This document shows positions 18,307-32,253 of a DNA stretch of 64,000 nt, in pieces. The DNA is from Arthrobacter sp. OY3WO11 (lineage in GTDB: Bacteria; Actinomycetota; Actinomycetes; Actinomycetales; Micrococcaceae): the NCBI RefSeq assembly GCF_001641125.1, contig NZ_LWLP01000001.1, positions 2,069,658-2,133,657 of the forward strand. Reading direction: 5' to 3'. Below the pieces are notes generated by a model. The model was given only the letters and a program-made list of their open reading frames with translations, was not told the DNA's origin and did no database searches. A program made the position numbers and the translations under genes. Numbering within the stretch: position 1 is the stretch's first letter; each line of letters begins with the position of its first letter.

Positions 18307-19698
18307 TCAGTGACGCTGAGGTCCTCCGCTTGGGTGGGGGCTGGTCCGAGGACGACGTTGTGGGTTGACCCTCTCGAGATCGAGATGGTCCGGACGCTCC
18401 AGCAGCCGTGAGGCGGCGTATCCGATGACCAGGCCCCAGAAGGCTGCGTGGATGTTGAACAGATCGAGGCCGGAGATGGTCACCACGAAGGTCACCAGCG
18501 CTCCCAGAGTGAAGGTGGTGGAGAAGGCGGTCACGAACGCCTGCTGGAGTGCCCGCAGCATCGCGATTCCGCCAAGAACTAGGACGAATTCCTTGGGCGT
18601 GGCGAGCATCAGCCAGGTCAGGGTGGGAGCCAGCGCCGCGCAGGCCAGTGCGAGGCCACCATAGGTCACCGCTGCTGTGTACTGGCGTTCTTTATCCCCC
18701 GACGACGTCAACAGGGCGTTGGTGGGTCCGGTCACGCAAGCAGATACGGCGCCGCAGCCGGCGTTCAGCAGGGAGAATGCGCCGGACACGATGGCGAAGA
18801 CGTTCACCGGTGGCCGGTGGCCGGCGGCCCGGAGAACGGCGATGCCCTGGCCGTTTTGGACGAAGAGGACCGTCAGCGCCAGGGGGACCACCAGTTCCAG
18901 CTGCGACTCCCACGTGAACACCGGAGGGGTGAAGGCCGGGGCTGCCAGGAGAAAGCCGGGTTCACCGGCGACAAACTGCCCGCTGACGGCCACCGCCAGG
19001 CCGCCGGCCAGCAACGTCCCGAGGACCGGCGGGAGGAATTTTCCCAGGGCCGGCACCGCAGTCAGGAGCAGGAAGGCGCCCACCATCGGGGCGGCAATGA
19101 CCGGATTGGCTTGGGTCGAGGACACGATATCCGTGCCGAAGCGGAGGAAGACAGCGGCGACCATGGCCATGACGATCGGCATGGGAATCATCGCCATGAT
19201 CCGCCGGACCACCCCTGTGGCGCCCAGCGCCAGGATGAGCAGGCCGGCAGTGAAGAACGTACCCACCACTTCCGCGAAGGAAAGGTGCTGCAGCGACGGC
19301 CCGAGCAGTACCGTGCCTGGAATCGACCAGGCGAATCCCAGCGGCTGCCGGTACATCAGAGACATGAGGAGTGTCGCGGCGCCGCCGGAGAACAGTATGC
19401 CGAAAACCCACGAGGCGAGCTGGTCCTGGCTCAGCCCGCCCGCTGCCCCGACGGCGAGGGTGACGGCGATGGGCCCGGAGGCGGTGAAGACCAGGCCAAT
19501 GGCGCCGTTGGACAGGTAGGCGGGTGCCACGTCCCGAAGGAAACGCCGTGGTCCGGCCGGACGGCGTCCGGGCCGTTCCAGGAGCGGTTGCTGCGAAGGC
19601 GGCAGCTCCGCGGCCGGCAGCCCGGGCGCCGGCTCTGCATGGACGGGCGCTGCTGCGGTTTCGGGCTGGGTGGATGGGTCCTGGCGGGAAGTGGGCAT
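18307..19698 (-). CDS. benE: Benzoate/H+ symporter BenE
   Basis: A 463-residue inner-membrane permease of the BenE family, importing benzoate with protons. About 40 residues of Pro-rich cytosolic start precede roughly twelve hydrophobic segments. Family-like stretches include LSNGAIGLVFTASGPIAV, a Gln- and Ser-rich GLSQDQLASW, NAGCGAVSACVTGPTNA and the closing FWGLVIGYAASRLLERP. The ATG at 19698 has an AGGAGCC sequence upstream; an in-frame longer start (19791) would run through the catA terminator and is unlikely. It lies downstream of catA on the same strand, separated by a terminator, so its expression may be partly independent. Confidence 0.93.
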   Translation of the reverse strand: MPTSRQDPSTQPETAAAPVHAEPAPGLPAAELPPSQQPLLERPGRRPAGPRRFLRDVAPAYLSNGAIGLVFTASGPIAVTLAVGAAGGLSQDQLASWVFGILFSGGAATLLMSLMYRQPLGFAWSIPGTVLLGPSLQHLSFAEVVGTFFTAGLLILALGATGVVRRIMAMIPMPIVMAMVAAVFLRFGTDIVSSTQANPVIAAPMVGAFLLLTAVPALGKFLPPVLGTLLAGGLAVAVSGQFVAGEPGFLLAAPAFTPPVFTWESQLELVVPLALTVLFVQNGQGIAVLRAAGHRPPVNVFAIVSGAFSLLNAGCGAVSACVTGPTNALLTSSGDKERQYTAAVTYGGLALACAALAPTLTWLMLATPKEFVLVLGGIAMLRALQQAFVTAFSTTFTLGALVTFVVTISGLDLFNIHAAFWGLVIGYAASRLLERPDHLDLERVNPQRRPRTSPHPSGGPQRH

Positions 19699-19728
19699 CC
19701 TGGCTCCTGGCTGCGTGGTCAGAAAAGG

Positions 19729-19762
19729 CAGGCGCCCCGGAGATGCAGCTCCGGGGCGCCTG
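19729..19762 (-). terminator. Rho-independent terminator after catA
   Basis: Perfect 13-bp arms (19729-19741 and 19750-19762) with an 8-base loop. On the minus strand they are followed by TGCCTTTTCT. It lies between the catA stop and benE start. Confidence 0.85.
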
Positions 19763-19809
19763 GGTTGCCGGGCCTTGGCGCCCGGCCTCAAACAAGCAGG
19801 GGCAAAGAC

Positions 19810-20694
19810 CTACTTGGTCTCGCCTTCCTTGGCGAGGACGTAGTTGTACACAACATCCTCGCCGGCTCCGCCGTCCGTGCGGGGTTTGGGGTCCAGCATC
19901 AGTTCCGGCTTGACGGCCGAGGCGATGTCGTCGGCGTTGTGCGGGTCGCCCGGGAAGTAGAGCTGCTGGGTGACGGGCTGGTAGCCGGGTGCCGAGACCT
20001 TGATGTGGATGTGGGCCGGGCGCCAGGCGTGCCAGCCGGCCGCCTCGATGAGCTGGCCGCAAGCGCCGTCCGTGGGGATCTGGTACGGCGCCGGACGCAT
20101 GGTGTTGATTTCGAAGCGGCCCTGGTCGTCGGCCTTGACCGTGGCGCGGAAGAGCCATTCGGGCAGGCCCGGGGCGTACTGCGAGTAGAAACCGGCGGCG
20201 TCCGCGTGCCAGATTTCCACCTGGGCGTTCTGGAGGGCATTGCCGTTGGTGTCCGTGAACTGGCCGGTGAAGCGCAGCGGGGTGCCCTCTTCGCCGTCGC
20301 GCATGAGGACAGTGGCCGGCGTCGCAAGCTCCGGCGACCCTGGCACGTAGTAGGGGCCCTCGATGGTGCCCTTGGTGCCGGGGCGCTCCTGGGAGTTGAC
20401 GTCCTCCACCGTATGCTCCAGCCACACGTCAAGGAACAGCGGCCACTCGCCGTCGGTACCCACCTTGATGAGCCACGCCTTCAGGGCGTTGTACTCCTCA
20501 TAGGTGACCTCGTGCTCAATGACGATGTCATTCGCGGCCTTGATGAGCGCGCCGGCCAGCAGGCTCACGCGTTCCTTGGGCACGCTCAGTTCCGAAAGCT
20601 TGCCGGAAGCGGTGAAGCGTTCGGTAGCCTTCGAGCCGGCTTCAACGGCCGTGCCCTCGTTCTCGTTCCGGATATCCACTTGGGTCTCAGTCAT
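19810..20694 (-). CDS. catA: Catechol 1,2-dioxygenase
   Basis: Intradiol ring-cleaving non-haem Fe(III) enzyme turning catechol and O2 into cis,cis-muconate, the first step of the ortho pathway. The 294-residue protein has the N-terminal helical linker domain (about 20-100) and the catalytic beta-sandwich. Iron ligands are expected from the Tyr in GPYYVPG, the Tyr near FYSQYAPG, and the two His in WRPAHIHIKV. ATG 20694 with GGAG six bases upstream is preferred over an in-frame GTG at 20706. It is transcribed away from benABCD, sharing the 330-bp control region. Confidence 0.95.
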   Translation of the reverse strand: MTETQVDIRNENEGTAVEAGSKATERFTASGKLSELSVPKERVSLLAGALIKAANDIVIEHEVTYEEYNALKAWLIKVGTDGEWPLFLDVWLEHTVEDVNSQERPGTKGTIEGPYYVPGSPELATPATVLMRDGEEGTPLRFTGQFTDTNGNALQNAQVEIWHADAAGFYSQYAPGLPEWLFRATVKADDQGRFEINTMRPAPYQIPTDGACGQLIEAAGWHAWRPAHIHIKVSAPGYQPVTQQLYFPGDPHNADDIASAVKPELMLDPKPRTDGGAGEDVVYNYVLAKEGETK

Positions 20695-21023
20695 GGCGGT
20701 CTCCACCTTCGTCTTTGAAATTGGGGCCCAGGAAGGTCTCCTGTACCCGCCGCGGGACGCCGGCGCAGGAGAACCTGCGGGCCGTGGCGTCGCGTGATGT
20801 CTGTCTCATCGTAGGTCCGAAGATAATGACGAAACAAATATTGATAAGGCCGAATTTTAGTCATTATCGGAACATAAACACACCCTTGGTCGACCCTAGG
20901 TGTTTGCCTGATGTGAGACGAGTCACGGCAGGGAAGAATTGCCTCTAACGTCCACCGCCGGCGCCGCCGCCAGCCCGGACCTCCCGCCCATCCGTCCAGC
21001 AATCTCCAATGAGGGAGCACGCC
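20695..21023. promoter_or_regulatory. Divergent catA/benA control region
   Basis: AT-rich for this genome. It contains a 9-bp inverted repeat GATAATGAC (20822-20830) / GTCATTATC (20860-20868) around the AT-rich core, and AAACAC (20876-20881) / GTGTTT (20900-20905) nearer benA. These are candidate binding sites for the LuxR-type or LysR-type regulators of the cluster. Confidence 0.55.
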
Positions 21024-22409
21024 ATGACCGAGAACCTGATCCATACCCGCGAGGTCCTTGCCGACGCCGTGGTCGACGACCGTGAGAACGGCATCATCCG
21101 GGCCAAGCGCGAAATCTTCACTGACCAGGACATCTTCGAGCTCGAGATGAAGCACATCTTCGAAGGCAACTGGGTATACCTGGCCCACGAGTCCCAGATC
21201 CCCAACGTGGGTGACTACTTCACCACGTATATCGGCCGCACCCCGGTGATGATCACCCGGGACAAGGACGAGAAACTCAACTGCCTGGTCAATGCCTGTT
21301 CGCACCGCGGCGCCATGCTGTGCCGCCGCAAGACGGACAACCGCACCACCTTCACCTGCCCGTTCCACGGCTGGACGTTCAAGAACTCCGGCGAACTGCT
21401 GAAGGTCAAGGACTCCAGGAACGCCGGCTACCCCGAGACCTTCAACAAGGAAGGCTCGCACGACCTCACCAAGGTGGCCCGCTTCGAGTCCTACCGCGGC
21501 TTCCTGTTCGGGTCGCTGAAGGCTGACGTGCTTCCGCTCGAGGAGCACCTGGGCGATGCCACCAAGGTGATCGACTCCATCGTGGACCAGTCGCCCGAAG
21601 GCCTGGAGGTGCTGCGCGGTTCCTCCACCTACACCTATGACGGCAACTGGAAGGTCCAGGCTGAGAACGGGGCGGACGGGTACCACGTTACGGCCGTGCA
21701 CTGGAACTACGCCGCCACCACAGCCCGCCGCAGCGCCGGTGACTCCGCCAACAAGACCAAGGCCATGGACGCCGGCAAGTGGGGCAAGGTCAAAGGCGGC
21801 TTCTACTCCTACGACCACGGCCACCTGCTCCTGTGGCAGGAATGGACCAATCCCGAGGACCGTCCGCTCTGGGACCGGCGCGAGGAACTGGTGCAGAAGT
21901 ACGGCGAGGAAATGGCGAACTTCATGATCAACATCTCACGCAACCTTTGCCTGTACCCGAACGTTTACATCATGGACCAGTTCTCCTCGCAGATCCGCCA
22001 CTTCCGGCCGATTTCCGCGGACCAGACCGAGGTGACGATCTACTGCATCGCACCCAAGGGCGAGTCCCAGGAGAACCGCTCCAAGCGCATCCGCCAGTAC
22101 GAGGACTTCTTCAACGCCACCGGCATGGCCACGCCTGACGACCTCGAGGAATTCCGCTCCTGCAACAAGACCTACTGGGCCACCAGCGCCCCGTGGAACG
22201 ACATGACCCGTGGCTCCACCCACGAGATCTCCGGCCCGGACGAGCAGGCCCAGGCCCTGGGGATGACCAGGGTCATCGCCTCCGGCGTGCGCACCGAAGA
22301 CGAAGGGCTCTACCCCATCCAGCACGGGTACTGGAAGGAAGTCATGGACCGTGCCCTGGCGGAGGAAGAGGAGCGTTCCGCGCTGGACTCATTCCCCGCC
22401 TCCGCCTGA
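21024..22409 (+). CDS. benA: Benzoate 1,2-dioxygenase, large subunit
   Basis: Alpha subunit of the ring-hydroxylating dioxygenase that adds O2 to benzoate, giving the cis-diol. Of 461 residues, the Rieske [2Fe-2S] site is CSHRG (Cys92, His94) and CPFHGW (Cys112, His115). The mononuclear iron site is in the segment [15 protein letters not shown] (about residues 215-230). ATG 21024, with GAGGGAG seven bases upstream, is preferred over one five codons earlier. It opens the benABCD operon; benB follows after 35 bp. Confidence 0.96.
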
Positions 22410-22444
22410 CAGAGCCCACCGGAACCACAGAGAGCGCAGACCCC

Positions 22445-22981
22445 ATGACCAACCTGACCCAAACCGCCCCGGTCCTGAAGACCGCGGAGGAGATCGCAAC
22501 CCTGGAAACGGTCCGGGCGTTCCTTTACCGGGAAGCCCGCCTGCTGGACGACCGCCAGTTCGACGAATGGCTCGCGTGCTACCACCCGGATTCCGAATTC
22601 TGGATGCCGGCCTGGGACGTGGACGACCAAATGACGCAGGACCCCCAGAACGAGATCTCCCTGATCTACTACGACAACCGCGGCGGCATCGAGGACCGGG
22701 TGTTCCGGATCAAGACCGACCGGTCTTCGGCGACCTCCCTCCCCGAGCCGCGCACGGGCCACAACATCACGGACGTTGAGGTTCTGGCGAACGACGGCGG
22801 CCGGGTGGAGGTGCGCTTCAACTGGTTCACCCTCTACTTCCGCTACAACACGACGGACACGTACTTCGGCACCAGCTACTACACGATCGACCTTTCCGGC
22901 CCGCAGCCGGTGATCCTGAAGAAGAAGGTCGTCCTGAAGAACGACTACATCCACCACGTGGTGGACGTCTACATGATCTGA
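22445..22981 (+). CDS. benB: Benzoate 1,2-dioxygenase, small subunit
   Basis: Beta subunit (178 residues) of the dioxygenase; it has a structural role and forms the alpha3beta3 oligomer with BenA. The cone-shaped NTF2-like fold of the family is reflected in EEIATLETVRAFLYREARLLDDRQFDEWL at the N terminus (split here across residues 15-45), SEFWMPAW and the ending VVLKNDYIHHVVDVYMI. Length matches the usual ~160-180 residues. It lies between benA and benC on one transcript. Confidence 0.95.
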   Translation: MTNLTQTAPVLKTAEEIATLETVRAFLYREARLLDDRQFDEWLACYHPDSEFWMPAWDVDDQMTQDPQNEISLIYYDNRGGIEDRVFRIKTDRSSATSLPEPRTGHNITDVEVLANDGGRVEVRFNWFTLYFRYNTTDTYFGTSYYTIDLSGPQPVILKKKVVLKNDYIHHVVDVYMI

Positions 22982-23102
22982 CCTGCCCGTGCGGCGCCCG
23001 GAGTTCCCCGGCGCCGCACTGCAGGTCACATTCCGTGCCCGCCGGGCACACGAGAACTTTTCCCGGGACGCGACGACGCGCCCGCCCAGCCAGGAGGACC
23101 CC

Positions 23103-24674
23103 ATGGGCCATAAAGTAGCCCTCAGCTTCGAAGACGGCGTTACCAAAGTCATCAAGGTCGGCGACTATGAAACCGTCATGGACGCGGCCTACAAGGCGCG
23201 CATCAACATCCCGTCGGACTGCCGCGACGGCGCCTGCGGCACCTGCAAGGCGTTCTGCGATTCCGGGTCCTTCGACCCGGGCGACTACATCGACGACGCC
23301 ATGACCGAAGAGGAGCTGGAAAAGGGCTATCTGCTGACCTGCCAGGCAGTCCCGGAATCCGACCTGGCCATCCAGATCCCGGCCACGTCGGAGTCAGCGA
23401 AGACGGCGGCGGCCACCTTCACCTCCACCATCAAGGAGCTCAACCGGCACACGGACACCACGGTGTCTTTCACCCTCGAGGTGGACAACCGGGATGCGCT
23501 GGCCTTCCTTCCCGGCCAGTACGTCAACCTCAAGGTTCCCGGCACCGACGCCGAGCGGTCCTACTCTTTCAGCAGTGGCCCCGAGGTTGAGGACGCGTCC
23601 TTCATGGTCCGCGTCACCCCGCAGGGCGCCATGTCCGAATACCTGCGCGACCGCGCGGCAGTAGGCGACTCCGTTGAATTCACCGGCCCCTACGGCTCGT
23701 TCTTCCTGCGCGAACCCAAGCGGCCCCTGCTGCTTCTGGCCGGCGGCACCGGCCTGGCCCCGCTCCTGTCCATCCTTGAAAAACTCTCCGAAAACCCGCC
23801 GTCCAGCCCGGTCCACCTCATCTACGGGCTCACCCGGGAGGCGGACATCGTGGGCCTGGACTGGCTGCGTGCCTACGAAGCGAAGCTGCCCGGCTTCACC
23901 TGGGACTACATCGCCTCCGAGCCCGGCACCTCGGCCCCGCACACCGGCTACGTCACACAGATCATCGAACCGAAACACCTCAACGAAGGCGACGTGGACG
24001 TCTACCTCTGCGGCCCGCCCCCCATGGTCAACGCCGTCTCCAAGTGGCTGGACACTGAAGGCATCCAGCCTGCCAACTTCTACTTCGAGCGGTTCGCTCC
24101 GAAGGAGACCACCGGAGGCGACGCCGAAACGGGTGCCCCGGCGCCGGCCGGGAAGATCCAGGCCGAAGGCGACACGATGAGCCGCGGCGAGGCAGTGTCC
24201 TCGCTGGAGACCGGCCGGCTGGATTTCGGCAAGGAGGACAGCTTCGCCCACCTCGACGCCCGCATGGGCCTGGAGCTGGCGGTCAGCGAACTGCTGCTGG
24301 GCAGGCTCAGCGAAGCGCAGCTGCGCCAGTTCCGCCGGCTCGCCGAAGCCACCACGGCGTCAGTGGACGGCGGGAACATCACGGACCCCGAGGAGTTCGC
24401 GCGCACCAACGAGGAATTCCACGAGTACCTCTTCATGATCTGCGACAACCCCATGCTGCTGGAGTCCTACCGGCGCCTGGATGTGCACGCCCAGATGGCC
24501 GCGGCCCTCGACGCCGGAACGCCGATCTTCGAGCGGGTCACCCAGGACCACCTGGACATCGTGGACGCCTTTGAACGTGGTGACAAGGACCGTCTCCGCG
24601 CCGTCATCACCGCACACGCCCACGACGCTAAGGACACCATGGCCGGCGCCATCGACGCCAAGGCTGCCCTCTGA
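23103..24674 (+). CDS. benC: Benzoate dioxygenase reductase with FCD-like tail
   Basis: Electron-transfer subunit passing electrons from NADH through FAD and a plant-type [2Fe-2S] centre to BenAB. The ferredoxin domain has Cys40, Cys45, Cys48 and Cys80 (DCRDGACGTC, LLTCQ). The FAD domain has RSYS at 152-155 and the NAD domain GGTGLAP (214-220) and CGPPPM. The usual proteobacterial protein ends near residue 335-340. Here 523 residues are present, and 385-520 resemble the FCD ligand-binding domain of GntR regulators (NEEFHEYL, QDHLDIVDAFERGD, ITAHAHD). Long BenC proteins may be common in actinobacteria, but the role of the tail is not clear. The last base overlaps the benD start. Confidence 0.92.
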   Translation: MGHKVALSFEDGVTKVIKVGDYETVMDAAYKARINIPSDCRDGACGTCKAFCDSGSFDPGDYIDDAMTEEELEKGYLLTCQAVPESDLAIQIPATSESAKTAAATFTSTIKELNRHTDTTVSFTLEVDNRDALAFLPGQYVNLKVPGTDAERSYSFSSGPEVEDASFMVRVTPQGAMSEYLRDRAAVGDSVEFTGPYGSFFLREPKRPLLLLAGGTGLAPLLSILEKLSENPPSSPVHLIYGLTREADIVGLDWLRAYEAKLPGFTWDYIASEPGTSAPHTGYVTQIIEPKHLNEGDVDVYLCGPPPMVNAVSKWLDTEGIQPANFYFERFAPKETTGGDAETGAPAPAGKIQAEGDTMSRGEAVSSLETGRLDFGKEDSFAHLDARMGLELAVSELLLGRLSEAQLRQFRRLAEATTASVDGGNITDPEEFARTNEEFHEYLFMICDNPMLLESYRRLDVHAQMAAALDAGTPIFERVTQDHLDIVDAFERGDKDRLRAVITAHAHDAKDTMAGAIDAKAAL

Positions 24675-25501
24675 TGGCTGCGCCGTACGCCGGGCAGTTC
24701 GTGACCCCCGGCCGCTTCGGCGGCAAGGTCGCCGTCGTCACCGGGGCCGCCCAGGGGATCGGCCGGAAAGTGGCCGAACGCATCGGCGCCGAAGGCGGGG
24801 CAGTGGTCCTGGTGGACCGCGCGGAACTGGTCCACGACGTGGCCCGCGGCATCGAAGAGGCCGCCAAGGCCTCCGGCTCCGGGGGTTCGGCCACGTCCGT
24901 CACAGCGGACCTGGAGACCTTCGCCGGCGCCACCCAGGCCGTCAAGGCTGCGCTTGCCGCCCACGGCCGCGTGGATGTCCTGGTCAACAACGTGGGCGGC
25001 ACCATCTGGGCCCGCCCCTACGAGGAATACGACGAGGACAAGATCGAAAAGGAGATCCGCCGCTCGCTCTTTCCGACCCTCTGGAGCTGCCGGGCGGTAC
25101 TGCCGGCAATGCTGGAACAGGAGTCGGGCACCATCGTCAACGTGTCCTCGGTGGCCACCCGCGGCATGCACCGCGTTCCGTACGCAGCGGCGAAGGGCGG
25201 TGTCAACGCCCTGACCCAGGCCCTCGCCATGGAGGTTGCCGGCCGCGGCATCCGCGTGGTTGCCACTGCGCCGGGCGGCACAAAAGCTCCTCCGCGGAAG
25301 GTCAAACGTGGCCCGGAAGCCGAATCCGCCACGGAGAAGGCCTGGTACCAGGTGATCGTGGACCAGACCGTGGAATCGTCCTTCATGAAGCGCTACGGCA
25401 CCCTGGACGAGCAGGCCGCGCCCATCGTGTTCCTCGCCTCCGACGAAGCGTCCTACCTCACCGGCAGCATCCTTCCGGTGGCCGGCGGGGACCTGGGCTA
25501 G
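24674..25501 (+). CDS. benD: Benzoate cis-diol dehydrogenase
   Basis: Short-chain dehydrogenase (275 residues) oxidising and decarboxylating the benzoate cis-diol to catechol with NAD+. The cofactor loop is TGAAQGIG (residues about 24-31), VNNVGG is the strand-4 motif, Ser in VSSVAT and the catalytic YAAAKG follow. The ATG overlaps the benC stop by one base, indicating translational coupling. It ends the ben operon; the regulator gene begins 54 bp later. Confidence 0.94.
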   Translation: MAAPYAGQFVTPGRFGGKVAVVTGAAQGIGRKVAERIGAEGGAVVLVDRAELVHDVARGIEEAAKASGSGGSATSVTADLETFAGATQAVKAALAAHGRVDVLVNNVGGTIWARPYEEYDEDKIEKEIRRSLFPTLWSCRAVLPAMLEQESGTIVNVSSVATRGMHRVPYAAAKGGVNALTQALAMEVAGRGIRVVATAPGGTKAPPRKVKRGPEAESATEKAWYQVIVDQTVESSFMKRYGTLDEQAAPIVFLASDEASYLTGSILPVAGGDLG

Positions 25502-25521
25502 CGCTTGGACCCCCTCCGCAG

Positions 25522-25548
25522 GGAGCGGGCCGGCCGCTCCGGTAGACT
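25522..25548 (+). promoter_or_regulatory. Hairpin and possible -10 before the LuxR gene
   Basis: GGAGCGG (25522-25528) pairs with CCGCTCC (25534-25540), followed by TAGACT (25543-25548), a plausible -10, only seven bases from the ATG at 25556. The regulator may therefore have its own, nearly leaderless transcript. Confidence 0.35.
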
Positions 25549-25555
25549 GGCGGCC

Positions 25556-28387
25556 ATGACTGCGGGGTCCGTCCAGGGCGACATCGGTGCGGATTCGCCG
25601 CTGGTGGGGCGGGACGCGGTGTTCGGGGAACTCCTGGACATCCTCCGCGCCGTGCGTAAAGGCAAGGTGGCCACAGTGGTCCTCACCGGAGCGGCCGGTT
25701 CGGGAAAGACCGCGGTGCTGGAGTCCTTCCTGGAGCACTGCCGAACCGGCGCGCGCGGAGTCCGCGTGTTGTCCGCCATGGGGGATGAGTGGGAGGCGCA
25801 GTTTGCCCTCGCCGGATACTCCCAGCTCATGCTCACCTCGCCGTTGCGTTCGGCAAAGGCGTACGACGGCGGTCCGCAGCTTCCGGCGACGCCCGTCGCC
25901 GCCCTGAGCGCGGACCAGATGGTCAACTACGCGTCAACGCTGAGCACCCACCTCGAAGGGCTGCAGTCTCACGGAACCGTGGTGGTCGCCGTCGACGACG
26001 TCCACAAACTGGACGTGGAAAGCCTGCGCATCCTCACGTTCGTCATGCGCCGGCTCCACGGCAAGCGGATCCTTTTCCTGCTCACGCTGAACCCGGCGGA
26101 CGCGCCGCGCATCCCCGCCGGTGTCCTGGATTTCCTGACGGGGCACCAGGTGGCCCGGATCCCCATGGAGCCGCTGACCCCGCAGCAGGTCCAGGAAGTG
26201 GCCCGGCGCCTGCACGGCATCGACCTCAGCGTCACCGCGGCCCACGGCCTGGTCCGGCACACGGGCGGCCTGCCGCAGCCCGTTGCGGAGCTGCTGCGCG
26301 AGCTGCCCCCGGAAACCTGGCTGGCCTGGTTCCCCTCGCTGCCGCCCACCTCCCGGCTGCGTGCCAGGGTGCACAGCGTCCTGGATGCCGCGTCGCCCGG
26401 ACTCGTTGCCGTCGCCGAAGCCGCGTCCGTGCTGGGCCGCAGTGCGGGCCTGCCGGAAGTGGCCGCCGTCAGCGGAGTGGAGTCAGTCCTCGAAGCCTTG
26501 GACGAAGGGCACCGCGCCGGACTCCTGCGGCTCTCCGTGGACCAGGCGCGCTCTGCCGTCGTGTTCGTCGAACCCGGCACTGCCGAGGCGATCTACGAGC
26601 AGATCGTTCCCAGCCGCCGCATCGCGCTGCACCGCCTGGCCGCCGAGGCCGTGGAGCCGGAGGGTGAAAAACTGGGGCACCGGGTTTCGGCAACGCCCGC
26701 CGCGGACCAGGCGCTTGCCGAGGAGCTCGAGGACTTTGCCGGCCGCCAGGCGGCCGTGGGCGCATGGCAGGACGTCGCGACGGCCTTGTTTTCCGCGTCC
26801 CGCCTGTCGTTGGACCTCCGGACCCGCAACGACCGGCTGCTGCGCGCGGTGGACGCCCTGGTGGGGGCCGGCAATGTTGCCGAGGCGCAGACCTGGTCCG
26901 CCGCCGTGGACGCCCTGCCGCCCTCACCGCTGCGTTCCTCGGTGCTGGGCTACCTGTCCACGGTGTCCGGCCAGAACGACAGCGCCCAGAGCCAGCTGGA
27001 AATGGCGTGGCGCACCAGCAACCCGGAGCGCGATCCCAAGGCAGCAGCCCAGGTGGCCCAACGCTTTGTCCTCCACGGGGTGGCGTCCTGGGACGGGCCG
27101 ATGATCACCGGCTGGGCGGAACGGGCCATGTCCCTGACCGCGCCCGGGACGCCGGCGCACGTCGAATCTGAAGCCATCTACGGCCTGGGCCTGTACGCCC
27201 GCGGCCGGCTGGGGGAGGCGGAGGCCTCGTACCAGCGCGCGTTCGGCCACGCCGCCGAGAATGCGCAGAAGCAGCGGGTGCAGATGGGAGCCGGCTGGCT
27301 GGCGCTGCGGATGGACAATGTCGAATCGGCCCTGGTGAACTTCGAGTCGGCGGCCCCCACCGAGTACCGCGGCGGGTCCCTGCGGATTTCCCTGTGGGCC
27401 GAGGCGTGGCTGGCCCGCACCCACCTGGTGCTGGGGAACTGGGATGCCGCGGCGGCCACTATCGCACGGTCCAGCGTCCGCCTGGAAACCTCCCGGATGC
27501 CCCTGATCCGGCCCCTCCTGTACTGGACCGCCGCGGAGCTGTGGTCGATGCGTGGGGACTGGGACCGGGCCCGCTATTACGTCTCCCAGGCCGCGGTCCA
27601 GCCGGGGACGTACCGGGCCATGCAGGTTCCGGCAAGCCTGGCGCGGGCACGCTTCCATGAGGCAAGGGCGGACTACGAGAGCGCCCTGGCCGTGCTGCAG
27701 CCCCTGACCGAGCTGGACCCGTGGACCGAGGACCGGGTGTCTTTCTGGCCGTGGCAGGACACCTACGTCAACGCACTTGTCATGACCGATCAGCTGGATA
27801 CCGCCGACGCGTTCCTGACGTCCTTCGAGGGACTGCGGCGCGAGCGCGAAATCCCTTCCGATATGGCCCGGATGGCGTGGGCGCGGGGCCGGCTTCTGGC
27901 GGCGCAGGGGGATCCCGACACGGCCCGGGAGTATTTCGAGGCGGCCCTGGGCCACCTCCGCGGGCTAAACCGGCCCTACCTGCGGGCCCGGATAAGCTTT
28001 GCCTTCGGTCAGAGCATGCGCCGCGCCGGCAAGCGGCGGCTGGCATCGTCGGTGCTGCGTGCGGCCCGGGACCTCTATGACTCCCTCGGGGCGGCTACCT
28101 ATGTGGAGCGTTGCGACAGGGAGCTCAAAGCGACCGGTCTCGACGTCGGAAACCTCCCCGATCCTGCCGACGCAGTGCTCACCGCCGCGCGGGACCACCA
28201 CATCCAGCTCACCGCGCAGGAACAGGCGGTGGCCGAGCTTGTGGCCGGGGGCGCCACCAACAAGGAGGCGGCCCGTGCCCTGTTCCTCGCGGAGAAGACC
28301 GTGCAATACCACCTCACGCGGCTGTACCGGAAGATGGGCATCCGCTCGCGCAGCGAGCTCGCCGCCGCGTTCCGGGTCAAGGACTGA
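25556..28387 (+). CDS. LAL-type LuxR transcriptional regulator
   Basis: A 943-residue regulator of the large ATP-binding LuxR class. An AAA-like ATPase domain at the N terminus has Walker A GAAGSGKTAV (about residue 41-50) and a Walker B-like VVVAVDDVHKL. A long helical repeat region (about 330-850) looks TPR-like, and the last 65 residues form the LuxR helix-turn-helix (LTAQEQAVAELVAGGATNKE, then KTVQYHLTRLYRKMG). ATG 25556 is used since an upstream TTG only adds 17 poor residues. Directly after benABCD, it is likely the activator of benzoate genes, probably co-expressed with them. The symbol is left open. Confidence 0.9.
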   Translation: MTAGSVQGDIGADSPLVGRDAVFGELLDILRAVRKGKVATVVLTGAAGSGKTAVLESFLEHCRTGARGVRVLSAMGDEWEAQFALAGYSQLMLTSPLRSAKAYDGGPQLPATPVAALSADQMVNYASTLSTHLEGLQSHGTVVVAVDDVHKLDVESLRILTFVMRRLHGKRILFLLTLNPADAPRIPAGVLDFLTGHQVARIPMEPLTPQQVQEVARRLHGIDLSVTAAHGLVRHTGGLPQPVAELLRELPPETWLAWFPSLPPTSRLRARVHSVLDAASPGLVAVAEAASVLGRSAGLPEVAAVSGVESVLEALDEGHRAGLLRLSVDQARSAVVFVEPGTAEAIYEQIVPSRRIALHRLAAEAVEPEGEKLGHRVSATPAADQALAEELEDFAGRQAAVGAWQDVATALFSASRLSLDLRTRNDRLLRAVDALVGAGNVAEAQTWSAAVDALPPSPLRSSVLGYLSTVSGQNDSAQSQLEMAWRTSNPERDPKAAAQVAQRFVLHGVASWDGPMITGWAERAMSLTAPGTPAHVESEAIYGLGLYARGRLGEAEASYQRAFGHAAENAQKQRVQMGAGWLALRMDNVESALVNFESAAPTEYRGGSLRISLWAEAWLARTHLVLGNWDAAAATIARSSVRLETSRMPLIRPLLYWTAAELWSMRGDWDRARYYVSQAAVQPGTYRAMQVPASLARARFHEARADYESALAVLQPLTELDPWTEDRVSFWPWQDTYVNALVMTDQLDTADAFLTSFEGLRREREIPSDMARMAWARGRLLAAQGDPDTAREYFEAALGHLRGLNRPYLRARISFAFGQSMRRAGKRRLASSVLRAARDLYDSLGAATYVERCDRELKATGLDVGNLPDPADAVLTAARDHHIQLTAQEQAVAELVAGGATNKEAARALFLAEKTVQYHLTRLYRKMGIRSRSELAAAFRVKD

Positions 28388-28414
28388 CCCGGAACGGGCG
28401 TTCTGGGTCAGTCC
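28381..28414. terminator. Bidirectional hairpin between convergent genes
   Basis: Perfect 10-bp arms GGACTGACCC (28381-28390) and GGGTCAGTCC (28405-28414) contain the stop codons of both the LuxR gene and catC. It is a compact convergent terminator candidate without a long T-run. Confidence 0.6.
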
Positions 28415-28689
28415 TTGACGTCGGAGGGATGCTTGGCCAGCGGAACCACCGAGATCTCCATGTAGGGGAACAGGGGCAGGTTCTGCAGGATGTCGTGGAG
28501 TTCGTCGTTGGAGTCAACGTCAAAGATCGAATAGTTGGCGTACTCACCGACCACGCGCCAGATTTCCGGCCACTTCCCCGAGCGTTGCAGCTCCTGCGAG
28601 TAGGCCTTCTCCTTCGCTTTGATCCCGGCCGCCTCGGAGGCGGGCAGGTCTGCGGGCAATTTCACGTCCATGTGGACCAGGTACTTCAC
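28408..28689 (-). CDS. catC: Muconolactone delta-isomerase
   Basis: Small decameric enzyme (93 residues) that isomerises muconolactone to the 3-oxoadipate enol-lactone. It begins MKYLVHMDVKLPADLP, the hallmark of the family, and has KEKAYSQELQRSGKW and the Phe/Tyr-rich LPLFPYMEI near the end. Length equals the family norm of about 92-96. It is the last gene of the lysR-catB-catC unit, 28 bp after catB. The next enzyme (enol-lactone hydrolase, pcaD) is not in the window. Confidence 0.95.
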   Translation of the reverse strand: MKYLVHMDVKLPADLPASEAAGIKAKEKAYSQELQRSGKWPEIWRVVGEYANYSIFDVDSNDELHDILQNLPLFPYMEISVVPLAKHPSDVKD

Positions 28690-28717
28690 TGGGTTTCCTT
28701 TCGTGGAAGGGGTGGCG

Positions 28718-29821
28718 TTAGCGGTCGCTGCGGTAGCGTTCGAGTTTTTCCTCGTTCACCCCGGTGCCTACGCCGGGGCCCTCGGGGACGCGGATGCGCC
28801 CGTCAATGATCTGCAGCGGGTCGGCCAGCAGGTCGTCCGTCATGTCCAGGTAGTTGGACAGTTCCGCGGCGCGCTTGGCGGTGTGGGCGAAGGCGGCGCC
28901 AAACACCACGGACGCCACGGTGCCCACCTGGGTGTCGATCTGGTTGCCGATGTAGACGTCGATGCCCATGCCCTCGGCCATTCCCACGATTTTGGCGGCC
29001 TCGGTGAATCCGGAGCGGGCCGTCTTGACCGCCAGCAGGTTGGCCCCGCCGTTGAGGATTTCCTTGGCGGCCTCGCCGAGGTTGGGGGCGGATTCGTCCG
29101 CTGCGATGGGGATGGGGGAGTTGGCGACAAGCCGGCGGCGGCCCAGGACTTCGCGGGCGTCGTCCGGCTCCTCGAGGAACTGCAGGCCGAGGTCCGCGGT
29201 GCGGCGGAGCACTTCGGCGGCCTCATTCGCGGACCAGCCCCGGTTGGCATCCATGTAGAGTTCGGCGTCCTCGCCCAGGCCCTCGCGCAGCACGCGGGCC
29301 GCTTCGATGTCCAGGTGGAGGGGGCGGCGGCCGGTCTTCAGTTTGAATGTGTTGATGCCGTACGTTTCGCGGAACTCCAGCGCCAGGGCGAGCAGTTCCC
29401 GGGCGGGCTTGAACCCAAGCATGTGGGAGACCCGCAGCGAATCGGAGTAGCCGCCCAGCAGTTTGGTCACCGGTTGGCCGAGGACCTTCCCGATGACGTC
29501 CCACAGGGCGATATCCACGGCACCCTTGGCGGTCTGGTTGTGGACGGTGCGGTAGAGGATCTCCTGGACCTTCTCCCGGTCAAAGATGTCGACGCCGATC
29601 AGCTGCGGCGCGAAGACGTCCTGCACCACCGCGACGATGGACTTTTGCGTCTCGCCGTAGGTGTACGGGCGCGGCGGGGTGTCCGCGAGGCCCACCACGC
29701 CGTCGTCCGTGCGGAGGCGGACCAGCACGTGGTCGGCCTCGTGGACCGACCCGGAGGCGAAGTGCAGCGGGTGGCGGTAGGGGATCGAGTAGGGAATCGC
29801 CTCAAGGGCTGCGATTTTCAT
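28718..29821 (-). CDS. catB: Muconate cycloisomerase
   Basis: Enolase-superfamily enzyme (367 residues) converting cis,cis-muconate to muconolactone using Mn2+. The N-terminal capping domain (about 1-130) is followed by the barrel. The catalytic lysine motif reads TFKLKTGRR, metal ligands are expected in [15 protein letters not shown] and AADESA, and the second acid/base lysine in LAVKTARSG. The ATG overlaps the lysR stop (ATGA), so the two genes are translationally coupled. Confidence 0.94.
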
Positions 29822-30738
29822 GAAGGGGAAAACCTTTCATCGGTGGGAAGCGGGTCATGCCCTGGCGCGATGGCCGCCACGACGACGTCCAGGAAGTTGT
29901 GCAGCAGGGCGGAGCGGTGGCCGCGGAGCCAGGCGACGGCGAGTTCCACGGAAGGTGCGTTGTCGATCTCCCGGTAGGCGACGCCGTCGAGCTGGAAAGC
30001 CCGGACCCGGGACGGCATGACCGCCACCCCGCCCCCGGCGGCGACGAAGGCGAGCATGGTGGAGGTTTCACCTACCACCTGGGTGATGCGCGGCTGGAAG
30101 CCCGCGTGGCGGCAGAGGTCCGAGGTGATGCGGTACAGGACGGACTCGGGCGCGTAGCTGATGAAGTCCTGGTCCTGCAGTTCGTGCATCGCCACCGGCT
30201 TGTCCTCGGCCAGGGCGCTGAAGGACGGAACAGCGAGGACGAGCGGCTCCTGGTCGACAACGCGGTAGTCGATGTCCTGGGAGGAGACGGGAGGGCGGAG
30301 GAGTGCTGCATCCAGCGTGCCGTCCCGGAGTCCGGCTTCCATGGACGGAGTAAGCATCTCGCCATGCAACGCCAGCGACAGGCCCGGCAGCATCTGCTTG
30401 GCCAGCCGCGCGATCTGCGGCATGACGCCGTAGGTGGCCGACCCCGAGAATCCCACCCGAAGGACGCCCGTGGCTCCCTTGCCCACTTGGTACACGTCCG
30501 CCTTCAAGGTCTCCATGTCATTGACGATCTGCCGCCCGCGGTCCAACAGGAGTTCGCCGGCTGTGGTGAGGTCCACGCGGCGTGTGGTGCGGTTAAGCAG
30601 CCGGACCCCCAGCTGTTCTTCGAGCTGGCGGATTTGCTGGGAGAGAGGCGGCTGGGCCATGTGGAGGCGTTTCGCGGCCCTGCCGAAGTGCCGTTCTTCC
30701 GCCACCGCGATGAAGTAGTTCAGCTGCCGGATGTCCAC
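29818..30738 (-). CDS. catR: LysR-type regulator of the catechol genes
   Basis: A 306-residue LysR-type transcriptional regulator. The winged helix lies at residues 1-60 (RQLNYFIAVAEERHFGRAAKRLHMAQPPLSQQIRQLE, typical of the CatR/BenM/CatM group), and the effector-binding domain covers about 90-300, where cis,cis-muconate would bind. It overlaps the start of catB by four bases. In most CatR systems the regulator is divergent from catB; here it is the first gene of the same unit, which suggests that it is autoregulated with its targets. The symbol follows the context rather than proof. Confidence 0.85.
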   Translation of the reverse strand: MDIRQLNYFIAVAEERHFGRAAKRLHMAQPPLSQQIRQLEEQLGVRLLNRTTRRVDLTTAGELLLDRGRQIVNDMETLKADVYQVGKGATGVLRVGFSGSATYGVMPQIARLAKQMLPGLSLALHGEMLTPSMEAGLRDGTLDAALLRPPVSSQDIDYRVVDQEPLVLAVPSFSALAEDKPVAMHELQDQDFISYAPESVLYRITSDLCRHAGFQPRITQVVGETSTMLAFVAAGGGVAVMPSRVRAFQLDGVAYREIDNAPSVELAVAWLRGHRSALLHNFLDVVVAAIAPGHDPLPTDERFSPS

Positions 30739-30785
30739 CGTGATGCCTTCCCATGCGCCCTGCCAAGGCTCTGCCCTGGACGACT

Positions 30786-30840
30786 ATTGATTCAAAGAAT
30801 AACTCTAAAAAGACTTACTAGTGCATTCTTTCGACTCAAT
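30786..30840 (-). promoter_or_regulatory. Imperfect inverted repeat upstream of catR
   Basis: ATTGATTCAAAGAAT (30786-30800) faces ATTCTTTCGACTCAAT (30825-30840) across 24 AT-rich bases, 48-102 bp before the catR start. The right half TTTCGACTCAAT (30829-30840) recurs at 32401-32412 upstream of benK with one mismatch, suggesting a shared LysR-type operator. Confidence 0.6.
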
Positions 30841-30867
30841 GACGTCCAGGGCAGGCCGCTGCGCGCG

Positions 30868-32253
30868 CTACTGGGGCTGCTTTGCCGCGACGTCCGTTTC
30901 GGCGCGGTGCTCAGCGATTTCTTCGACCTGGTGCTCGGCCTCTTCCAACTTGCGCTGGTGCGGGACCAGGACGGTGACGAGGGCGCCCAGGAGTGCAACG
31001 CCGCCGTAGATGTAGAAGGCCGTGGAGCCGCCGATGCCCGCTGCCGCGAGCCAACCGCCGATGATCGGGCCGAGTACGCCGCCCAGCCGGCCTACGCTGG
31101 CGCACCATGCAACGCCGGCCGCGCGGGCGTTGGTGGTGAAGTAGTTGGACTGGAATCCGTAGATCAGCACCTGCGTGCCCAGGGTTCCCACTCCGGCTAC
31201 GGCGATGAAGGTGAAGAGCATGGGCAACGGGAAGTTGAAGGTCATCAGGACCAGCGACACGGTGGCCAGCCCGAACGTGGAGGCGATGACCCGCTGCGGG
31301 CCGCTCTTATCCGCGAGTCGGGAGGCGATCAGGCCGCCCGCCACTGCACCGAGGTTCAGGGCCAGGGGGAAGAACAGGGAATACGTGCGGCCGTAGCCGT
31401 AACCTTCCATAATCTTGGGCAGCCATGTGTTGAGGCCGTACGTGAGCAGGAGGCCACAGAAGGACATGAGGCCCAGCAGGACCGAGGCCAGTGCGAACTG
31501 CCTGGAGAAGACCGCGGCGAACCCGGACTTCTGCGGTGCTGCGCCCGTGTCCAAAATGACGCGCTCCTCGAGCAGCGGAACACCGGTGCGCTCGGCTGCG
31601 GCTGCGGCTTCCTCTTCCCGGCCGCGGGAGAGCAGCCAGCGTGGAGATTCGGGGAGCTTGCGCCAGGCAAGGGGCAGCAGTATGACCAGCGGCAGTGCGC
31701 CAATGATGAACAGTCCGCGCCAGCCGAGGCTGTCGTGGAACAGGATGCCCATGATGGAGGCAACCACGCCGCCGGCGGGGACACCCGAGTAGACGATGGC
31801 GTTGTAGAACTGGCGGCGGCCAGCCGGGGCGAACTCGGCCATGGTGGCGCCCGCGCTGGCGATGACCACGCCCAGGCCCAGGCCAGTGATGAAGCGCATG
31901 GCGCCGAAGGCCGGCACCGTAGTGGTGAGGGCGGTGACGAACATGCCCACTGAGAACCAGGCGATGCCAAGGAGCATCAGCCGCCGGCGGCCGAAGAAGT
32001 CGCCTACGGCACCGCAGATCAGCGATCCCACCAGCACGCCGATGAGTGCCCAGGAGCCAAGTAGGCCGGCGGTGGCCATGTCGAACTTTCCGATCTCGCC
32101 AGGGTCCGCCAGGAGGCCCGGCAGGACGGTTCCGTAGATGACCAGGTCGTAACCGTCAAAGAGCAGGGCCGTGCAGATGATGAAGGCCACCCAGTTGGCG
32201 GTGCGGGCCTCCCTTTGTGGGTTTTCAGCGATAACCGCGTGCGGTTGTGTCAT
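30868..32253 (-). CDS. benK: MFS aromatic acid:H+ symporter (BenK/PcaK-like)
   Basis: A 461-residue major facilitator carrier of the aromatic acid:H+ symporter group. The first helix carries the diagnostic FDGYDLVIYG, and loop 2-3 has GAVGDFFGRRR with the conserved Asp and Arg. Loop 8-9 has SRLADKSGPQRV and twelve hydrophobic segments fill the rest. The charged tail (EEAEHQVEEIAEH) lies in the cytosol. It is upstream of catR on the same strand with its own promoter region. Together with BenE it gives the cell two benzoate uptake routes. Confidence 0.9.
   Translation of the reverse strand: MTQPHAVIAENPQREARTANWVAFIICTALLFDGYDLVIYGTVLPGLLADPGEIGKFDMATAGLLGSWALIGVLVGSLICGAVGDFFGRRRLMLLGIAWFSVGMFVTALTTTVPAFGAMRFITGLGLGVVIASAGATMAEFAPAGRRQFYNAIVYSGVPAGGVVASIMGILFHDSLGWRGLFIIGALPLVILLPLAWRKLPESPRWLLSRGREEEAAAAAERTGVPLLEERVILDTGAAPQKSGFAAVFSRQFALASVLLGLMSFCGLLLTYGLNTWLPKIMEGYGYGRTYSLFFPLALNLGAVAGGLIASRLADKSGPQRVIASTFGLATVSLVLMTFNFPLPMLFTFIAVAGVGTLGTQVLIYGFQSNYFTTNARAAGVAWCASVGRLGGVLGPIIGGWLAAAGIGGSTAFYIYGGVALLGALVTVLVPHQRKLEEAEHQVEEIAEHRAETDVAAKQPQ

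Follow-up and report, generated by a model that had tools for sequence, protein, structure and literature searches.

A regulator-type FCD domain on the benzoate dioxygenase reductase BenC of actinobacteria: a possible metal- and ligand-binding module linking electron transfer to the subsequent reaction

The window analyzed in this study is a stretch of 64,000 nucleotides from Arthrobacter sp. OY3WO11 (contig NZ_LWLP01000001.1), in which the gene benC (positions 23103 to 24674, forward strand) encodes a benzoate 1,2-dioxygenase reductase with a C-terminal FCD domain, the effector domain of FadR-type regulators. We tentatively favor, at slightly below an even chance, the reading that this FCD has been retained as a module for binding a metal and a ligand, through which the reductase would be tuned or coupled to the next enzyme; its metal, its ligand and its effect are proposals that we derive from comparisons of sequence. 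The computational support for this reading consists of the identity of the FCD, its intact site residues, its grouping in one clade, purifying selection and its placement between BenC and either BenD or a cytochrome P450. Most simply, a BenC-type reductase would have captured a FadR-type effector domain once, without the half that binds DNA. The captured domain would then have been maintained as a metal-loaded module that binds small molecules and is interposed between electron transfer and the catalytic step that follows.

The frame given in the initial annotation proved right: it translates to 523 amino acids plus a stop codon (TGA at 24672 to 24674). Residues 3 to 333 matched the NCBIfam BenC model NF040810 with 482.5 bits (cut-off 430). 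The domains follow the order of a 2Fe-2S ferredoxin domain (Fer2, PF00111, residues 10 to 84, 23130 to 23354, E = 3.7e-15), an FAD-binding domain (PF00970, residues 114 to 200, 23442 to 23702, E = 2.6e-15) and an NAD-binding domain (PF00175, residues 211 to 313, 23733 to 24041, E = 5.5e-20), with benAB located upstream and benD downstream. As judged from these matches, the N-terminal part is an ordinary benzoate dioxygenase reductase, with predicted NADH-dependent electron transfer to BenAB. The structure of a benzoate dioxygenase reductase (PDB 1KRH), which we take to be from Acinetobacter, aligned to residues 1 to 334 of BenC (Z = 34.0, 310 residues, 46% identity), with a root mean square deviation of 8.8 and the domains shifted. 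That protein has 337 residues and lacks an FCD, whereas the BenC of the window possesses one.

The FCD-like C-terminal domain described in the initial annotation was recovered by the profile search. PF07729 matched residues 384 to 506 (24252 to 24620) over profile positions 3 to 123 of 125, with 66.7 bits (curated gathering cut-off 24.3; E = 3.3e-18), and the tail scored alone obtained 69.6 bits (E = 4.3e-19). An AlphaFold2 model of BenC, built on an alignment of 37 proteins, had a mean predicted local distance difference test score (pLDDT) of 80.1 and a predicted template modeling score (pTM) of 0.55. In this model, a disordered linker (residues 332 to 375, 24096 to 24227, pLDDT below 50) is followed by an all-helical bundle with seven helices of at least 4 residues between residues 377 and 522, and the block means of pLDDT were 79 to 96 across residues 381 to 523; the ferredoxin part was modeled poorly (block means of 50 to 77). 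The check that had been proposed, on an FCD profile and on the order of the tail, thus returned a match above the cut-off and a helical tail. The fold comparison of the model retrieved reductases in both lists, with no solved FCD among the matches listed, and a sequence profile of BenC FCDs compared with known structures matched NanR (E = 7.5e-5), McbR (E = 0.0011) and LldR (E = 0.0034). We conclude that the tail is, by sequence, a genuine FCD domain. An artifact or frame error was ruled out by the single open frame and by the same architecture in many genomes.

The motifs named in the initial annotation are present in the FCD (NEEFH from N436 to H440, QDH ending at H483, and HAHD beginning at H505), and H440, H483 and H505 align with the metal histidines of FCD regulators. 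The residues H440 (24420 to 24422), H483 (24549 to 24551) and H505 (24615 to 24617) were invariant in 180 of 180 distinct BenC FCD tails, as were R387, E391 and N449, and N436 (24408 to 24410) was conserved in 177 tails and replaced by Thr in 3. For comparison, we analyzed 48 other FCDs, presumably of regulators: 20 were from the window genome, 3 from two plasmids and 25 from a large-genome member of a second actinobacterial family (G905), which has 51 matches besides BenC. All three histidines were present in 34 of these 48 domains, as opposed to all BenC tails, and the position of N436 was occupied by Asp in 34. The residues N436, H440, H483 and H505 reproduce the Asp/Asn-x3-His, His, His pattern of the metal-binding FCD subgroup, and the BenC site would correspond to the D/H/H/H metal site with Asn in place of the Asp (N/H/H/H), with metal binding predicted. 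The same four letters are found in Ps5454, reported to bind nickel via Asn144, His148, His192 and His214 (PMC7674646), with a spacing of 4/44/22 in Ps5454 versus 4/43/22 in BenC. The zinc of NanR, which has the D/H/H/H form, is described as being bound by Asp172, His176, His222 and His244 together with the carboxyl and hydroxyl groups of sialic acid, and Arg128 contacts the sialic acid carboxyl (PMC8012715). The profile of BenC FCDs places its histidine columns in register with NanR and LldR, and, by analogy, R387 may be the counterpart of NanR Arg128. The related regulators CitO, DgoR and LldR have been linked to citrate, galactonate and lactate, respectively (PMC4746285, PMC7674646).

It could also be argued that the function resides in the metal site as such, which might, for instance, hold iron for the dioxygenase, pass it on to this enzyme or sense metal supply. 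The three invariant histidines would suit such a function, and the dioxygenase requires iron. Furthermore, Fe3+ was reported to raise ben transcription in Rhodococcus TG-1, an observation on expression only (PMC11858498). However, the identical site precedes a haem enzyme in Paraburkholderia (see below), and we consider this explanation quite improbable.

The metal-binding FCD regulators NanR, LldR, Ps5454, TM0439, DgoR and CitO share the FCD with BenC by sequence, but, as regulators that bind DNA, they carry a winged helix at the N terminus, which BenC lacks. A profile scan revealed no GntR domain in the BenC of the window, and no GntR helix-turn-helix (HTH) domain was detected in 36 BenC-FCD relatives scanned from the start of the reductase to the end of the FCD. 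That BenC additionally regulates the transcription of the ben genes is highly improbable in view of these scans and of the LuxR-type and LysR-type regulator genes that the cluster already contains, even though FCDs are otherwise domains of regulators. In the window genome, 21 FCD matches were found, and the 20 outside BenC are in frames of 225 to 316 amino acids (19 frames) or 660 amino acids (1 frame); these lengths fit regulators, which we presume these proteins to be.

The phylogenetic data are consistent with a single origin. In a quick tree of 80 FCDs, based on few columns, the 32 BenC FCDs, including those fused to a P450, formed one clade (support 100) apart from the 48 others. A BenC-FCD profile made without the P450 fusions scored one of these fusions with 141 bits, and no other FCD scored above 40. 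This quick tree points to no particular regulator as the source, as the BenC clade is on a long branch and has no supported grouping with any other FCD.

We assessed the distribution of the domain using the BenC of the window as query (E = 1e-60), and the counts by architecture were checked locus by locus. In the strain's own family, BenC was found in 64 of 295 genomes, namely, as BenC-FCD in 44 and as BenC alone in 20. In the second family, 106 of 301 genomes matched, which contained 52 BenC-FCD-BenD fusions, 41 BenC-FCD proteins (one with a broken frame) and 4 BenC alone; another 4 were undecided at contig ends, and 5 had distant paralogues only. A sample of the phylum provided matches in 7 of 396 genomes, 3 of them only via paralogues 35 to 38% identical to the BenC of the window. 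A scan of named genomes with the FCD alignment as query returned 205 relatives, and the best 80, which were analyzed, comprised 52 BenC-FCD-BenD fusions (in Amycolatopsis, Prauserella, Saccharopolyspora, Nocardioides, Gordonia, Mycolicibacterium, Rhodococcoides, Geodermatophilus and others), 25 intact BenC-FCD proteins (in Rhodococcus, Dietzia and Micrococcaceae), 1 broken frame and 2 frames cut by contig ends. The BenC FCD thus occurs across many actinobacterial families, and the suggestion of a common long form in the BenC of actinobacteria holds in the two families examined and in the named genomes. The named-record and survey loci overlap, so that exact duplicates are absent only from the set of 180 distinct tails and from that of 98 distinct fused frames. 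Two groups of loci had other unusual proteins. In Dietzia (L212, L214 and L217) and in L077, L124, L126 and L130 to L132, all with a Dietzia-type BenC-FCD, the linker is very long and spans approximately 159 to 224 residues and BenD is unfused. At L012 (1396 to 4008), and similarly at L013, L014 and L184 to L188, a distant BenC-type reductase (35 to 38% identical) is encoded in a frame of approximately 850 to 935 amino acids, and its C-terminal part in L012 has weak matches to FAD oxidoreductases.

Absences of the domain were clean. Of 37 short BenC frames, 33 stop 3 to 35 residues past the reductase domain and the remaining 4 (L125, L127, L128 and L129) are cut by contig ends; no degenerate FCD or FCD remnant was found among the 37, and no free-standing FCD frame of the BenC kind was found in loci L001 to L188. 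In a tree of 63 reductase domains, which superseded a thin tree of 30, the presence or absence of the FCD takes 7 changes, and the well-supported branches demand at least 6 changes for the BenC-alone label. Excluded from the trees were the four loci cut by contig ends, L213 and L215 (BenC missing), L123 and L209 (broken frames) and L001, which equals the window. Four BenC-alone loci (L084 to L087) are placed among or beside FCD-bearing proteins, and the triple fusion takes 2 changes because the FCD-less L087 is inside it. L087, with BenC alone and a separate BenD, is nested in the triple-fusion clade (support 100/91) and appears to have secondarily lost the FCD and split the fusion. Although such change counts by themselves do not separate gain from loss, the single FCD clade together with the scattered absences indicates repeated loss.

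To what extent the domain is under constraint was assessed with the ratio of nonsynonymous to synonymous substitution rates (dN/dS), determined for 15 chosen pairs by a plain Nei-Gojobori count, as the codon model YN00 was saturated in most comparisons. Values were 0.03 to 0.20 for the FCD (15 of 15 pairs), 0.03 to 0.20 for the reductase and 0.02 to 0.53 for the linker, with one linker value (L157-L166) set aside due to a saturated synonymous rate. In the four BenC-FCD-BenD pairs, the FCD (0.05 to 0.18) was similar to the reductase (0.07 to 0.17), and among the 8 usable pairs outside the clade of the window, 7 had a higher ratio in the linker than in the FCD. These sequence comparisons indicate that the FCD is constrained everywhere, and least in the window's own clade. 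They bear on the possibility that the FCD is a passenger, i.e., an old accidental fusion that was tolerated and sometimes lost. The scattered clean absences, the short-form loci devoid of FCD remnants or free-standing FCD frames and an FCD that shows scarcely more conservation than the linker within the clade of the window would agree with a passenger, but the low dN/dS in all pairs, the faster linker elsewhere, the invariant site residues and the occurrence in many actinobacterial families argue against it, and we regard it as quite improbable.

Several of our data nevertheless weigh against a functional module of the kind favored here. In the six pairs that include the protein of the window, the dN/dS of the FCD was 0.11 to 0.18 as compared to 0.03 to 0.06 for the reductase, corresponding to a 2.5- to 4.4-fold faster evolution, and the FCD was not slower than the linker in 5 of these 6 pairs. 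The absence of the FCD from 20 of the 64 BenC-positive genomes of the strain's own family and the 7 changes on the tree show that it is dispensable. An equivalent of R387 was found in 46 of the 48 other FCDs, and this residue is a general FCD feature and no special mark of BenC. The pTM of 0.55 gives no confidence to the placement of the FCD relative to the reductase in the model. Finally, P450 fusions without nearby benA or benB, described below, count against a single benzoate-specific ligand.

The arrangement of the fused proteins is informative as to how the FCD relates to its neighbors. In all 107 BenC-FCD-BenD proteins (98 distinct), the gap between FCD and BenD was 10 to 20 residues (median of 14), whereas that between BenC and FCD was 84 to 251 residues long and rich in Ala and Pro. 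The short, steady gap on one side and the long one on the other suggest that the FCD moves together with BenD and that the reductase is attached to them by a long, mobile tether. In all 109 unfused BenC-FCD loci, BenD follows within 5 to 134 nucleotides of the BenC stop, and the unfused form of the window differs from the fusion at this junction by little more than one stop codon; FCD and BenD may thus act as one unit in the window strain too. In the window, BenD (24674 to 25501, forward strand; NF040811, 430.9 bits) is a separate polypeptide, and its ATG shares one base with the benC stop (TGATG).

A BenC match at E = 1e-60 was obtained in 96 plasmid records, and in 5 of these a single place spanned 80% or more of the query; all 5 are from Paraburkholderia (L189, L191, L272, L273 and L274). 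Their frames consist of BenC-FCD, in which the three histidines are preserved, and of a further 445 residues that match a cytochrome P450 (PF00067), so that a P450 takes the place of BenD as the third domain. In Paraburkholderia sp. FT54, the plasmid locus L189 (6001 to 8790) encodes such a polypeptide of 929 amino acids. On domain content, these proteins are candidate self-sufficient P450s. Where annotated, the Paraburkholderia fusions are labeled merely as BenC, as is the BenC-FCD-BenD form on a Tsukamurella plasmid. No matches to benA, benB or benD were found within 6 kb of the P450 fusion in L189 and L191. As this fusion demonstrates, the reductase-FCD cassette is not confined to benzoate, and a coupling function of a general kind gains support from it, at the expense of a diol-specific one.

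These data also provide the basis for the alternative that the FCD is mainly a scaffold that dimerizes BenC or docks BenD or another partner, with NADH being shared, the diol handed over and the metal being structural without any sensing. We consider this a realistic possibility, although not a probable one. It would account for the near-constant FCD-BenD gap and for the equivalent position ahead of the P450, is weakly supported by a model of FCD-BenD with a higher pTM (0.75 as compared to 0.55 for BenC-FCD, both without predicted aligned error) and is in line with the report that the FCD helices of NanR serve in dimerization as well as in effector binding (PMC8012715). On the other hand, a scaffold need not preserve three metal histidines in every tail, unless the metal is structural, and BenC proteins without FCD also keep BenD adjacent. 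The proposal in the initial annotation that the domain might tether another protein gained circumstantial support from the FCD-BenD junctions in many genera and from the P450 fusion, and its interpretation as a whole is partly supported.

Returning to the retained metal- and ligand-binding module, we propose that the FCD binds a divalent metal, which would chelate a carboxylate and a neighboring hydroxyl group, as in NanR. Our best guess for the natural ligand is the benzoate cis-diol (1,6-dihydroxycyclohexa-2,4-diene-1-carboxylate). This compound is the product of BenABC and the substrate of BenD and, like citrate, galactonate and lactate, an alpha-hydroxy acid. Its binding would alter the packing or pairing of the FCD helices and thereby slow down or speed up electron delivery by BenC; a build-up of diol could in this way throttle the electron supply. 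Alternatively, the FCD may hold BenC and BenD together or keep the diol near BenD. In either case, NADH use by BenC and NADH production by BenD would be kept in step. The narrower proposal, according to which a moved regulator sensor became a metal-dependent sensor of, or chelating hold for, the cis-diol that couples NADH use by BenC to its regeneration by BenD, with the cassette reused for a self-sufficient P450, is in our view doubtful.

The ben genes of the window are part of a compact cluster (18307 to 32253) for the conversion of benzoate to muconolactone. Upstream of benC are benA (21009 to 22409, forward strand; TIGR03229, 824.6 bits) and benB (22466 to 22981, forward strand; TIGR03232, 263.1 bits), encoding the large and small subunits of the dioxygenase, respectively. 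Around benABCD, we found catA, catC, a muconate cycloisomerase-type gene, a LysR-type gene and genes for a benE-type transporter and an aromatic acid transporter of the major facilitator superfamily (MFS) type; the benE, cycloisomerase and MFS scores fall below their curated cut-offs. Directly 3' of benD (25505 to 28387, forward strand), there is a gene for a regulator of 960 residues that combines an AAA ATPase domain with TPR and LuxR-type DNA-binding domains, and in Tsukamurella a long HTH regulator occupies the same place after the benD region.

The architecture has been encountered before. In Gordonia alkanivorans YC-RL2, benC and benD were reported in 2019 as fused with an FCD domain, with no function, metal site or distribution given in the available part of the text (PMC6362181); the operon is the same as in the window, but its BenD is fused, whereas benD of the window is separate and overlaps benC by one base. 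In Rhodococcus TG-1, the benC product was labeled as FCD domain-containing and its gene was transcribed with benA, benB and benD, the FCD serving, in the part of the text available, merely as a name (PMC11858498). In the open-license literature searched, we found no paper on the role, metal site, distribution or P450 form of the BenC FCD, in agreement with the initial statement that no role had been assigned.

FCDs are usually regarded as the part of a DNA-binding regulator that senses. Here, one is kept under selection, with its metal-site residues intact, on an electron-transfer enzyme across many actinobacteria, in many of which it is covalently joined to the reductase on one side and to the following pathway enzyme on the other. 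Pairs of close relatives of which one has the FCD and the other lacks it, such as L202 and L085, make its role testable by simply removing the domain. If the FCD senses the cis-diol, aromatic-ring dioxygenation would be under direct control by its product, which would be relevant to benzoate and muconate bioprocesses, and the FCD provides a naturally occurring linker module with which self-sufficient P450s could be constructed.
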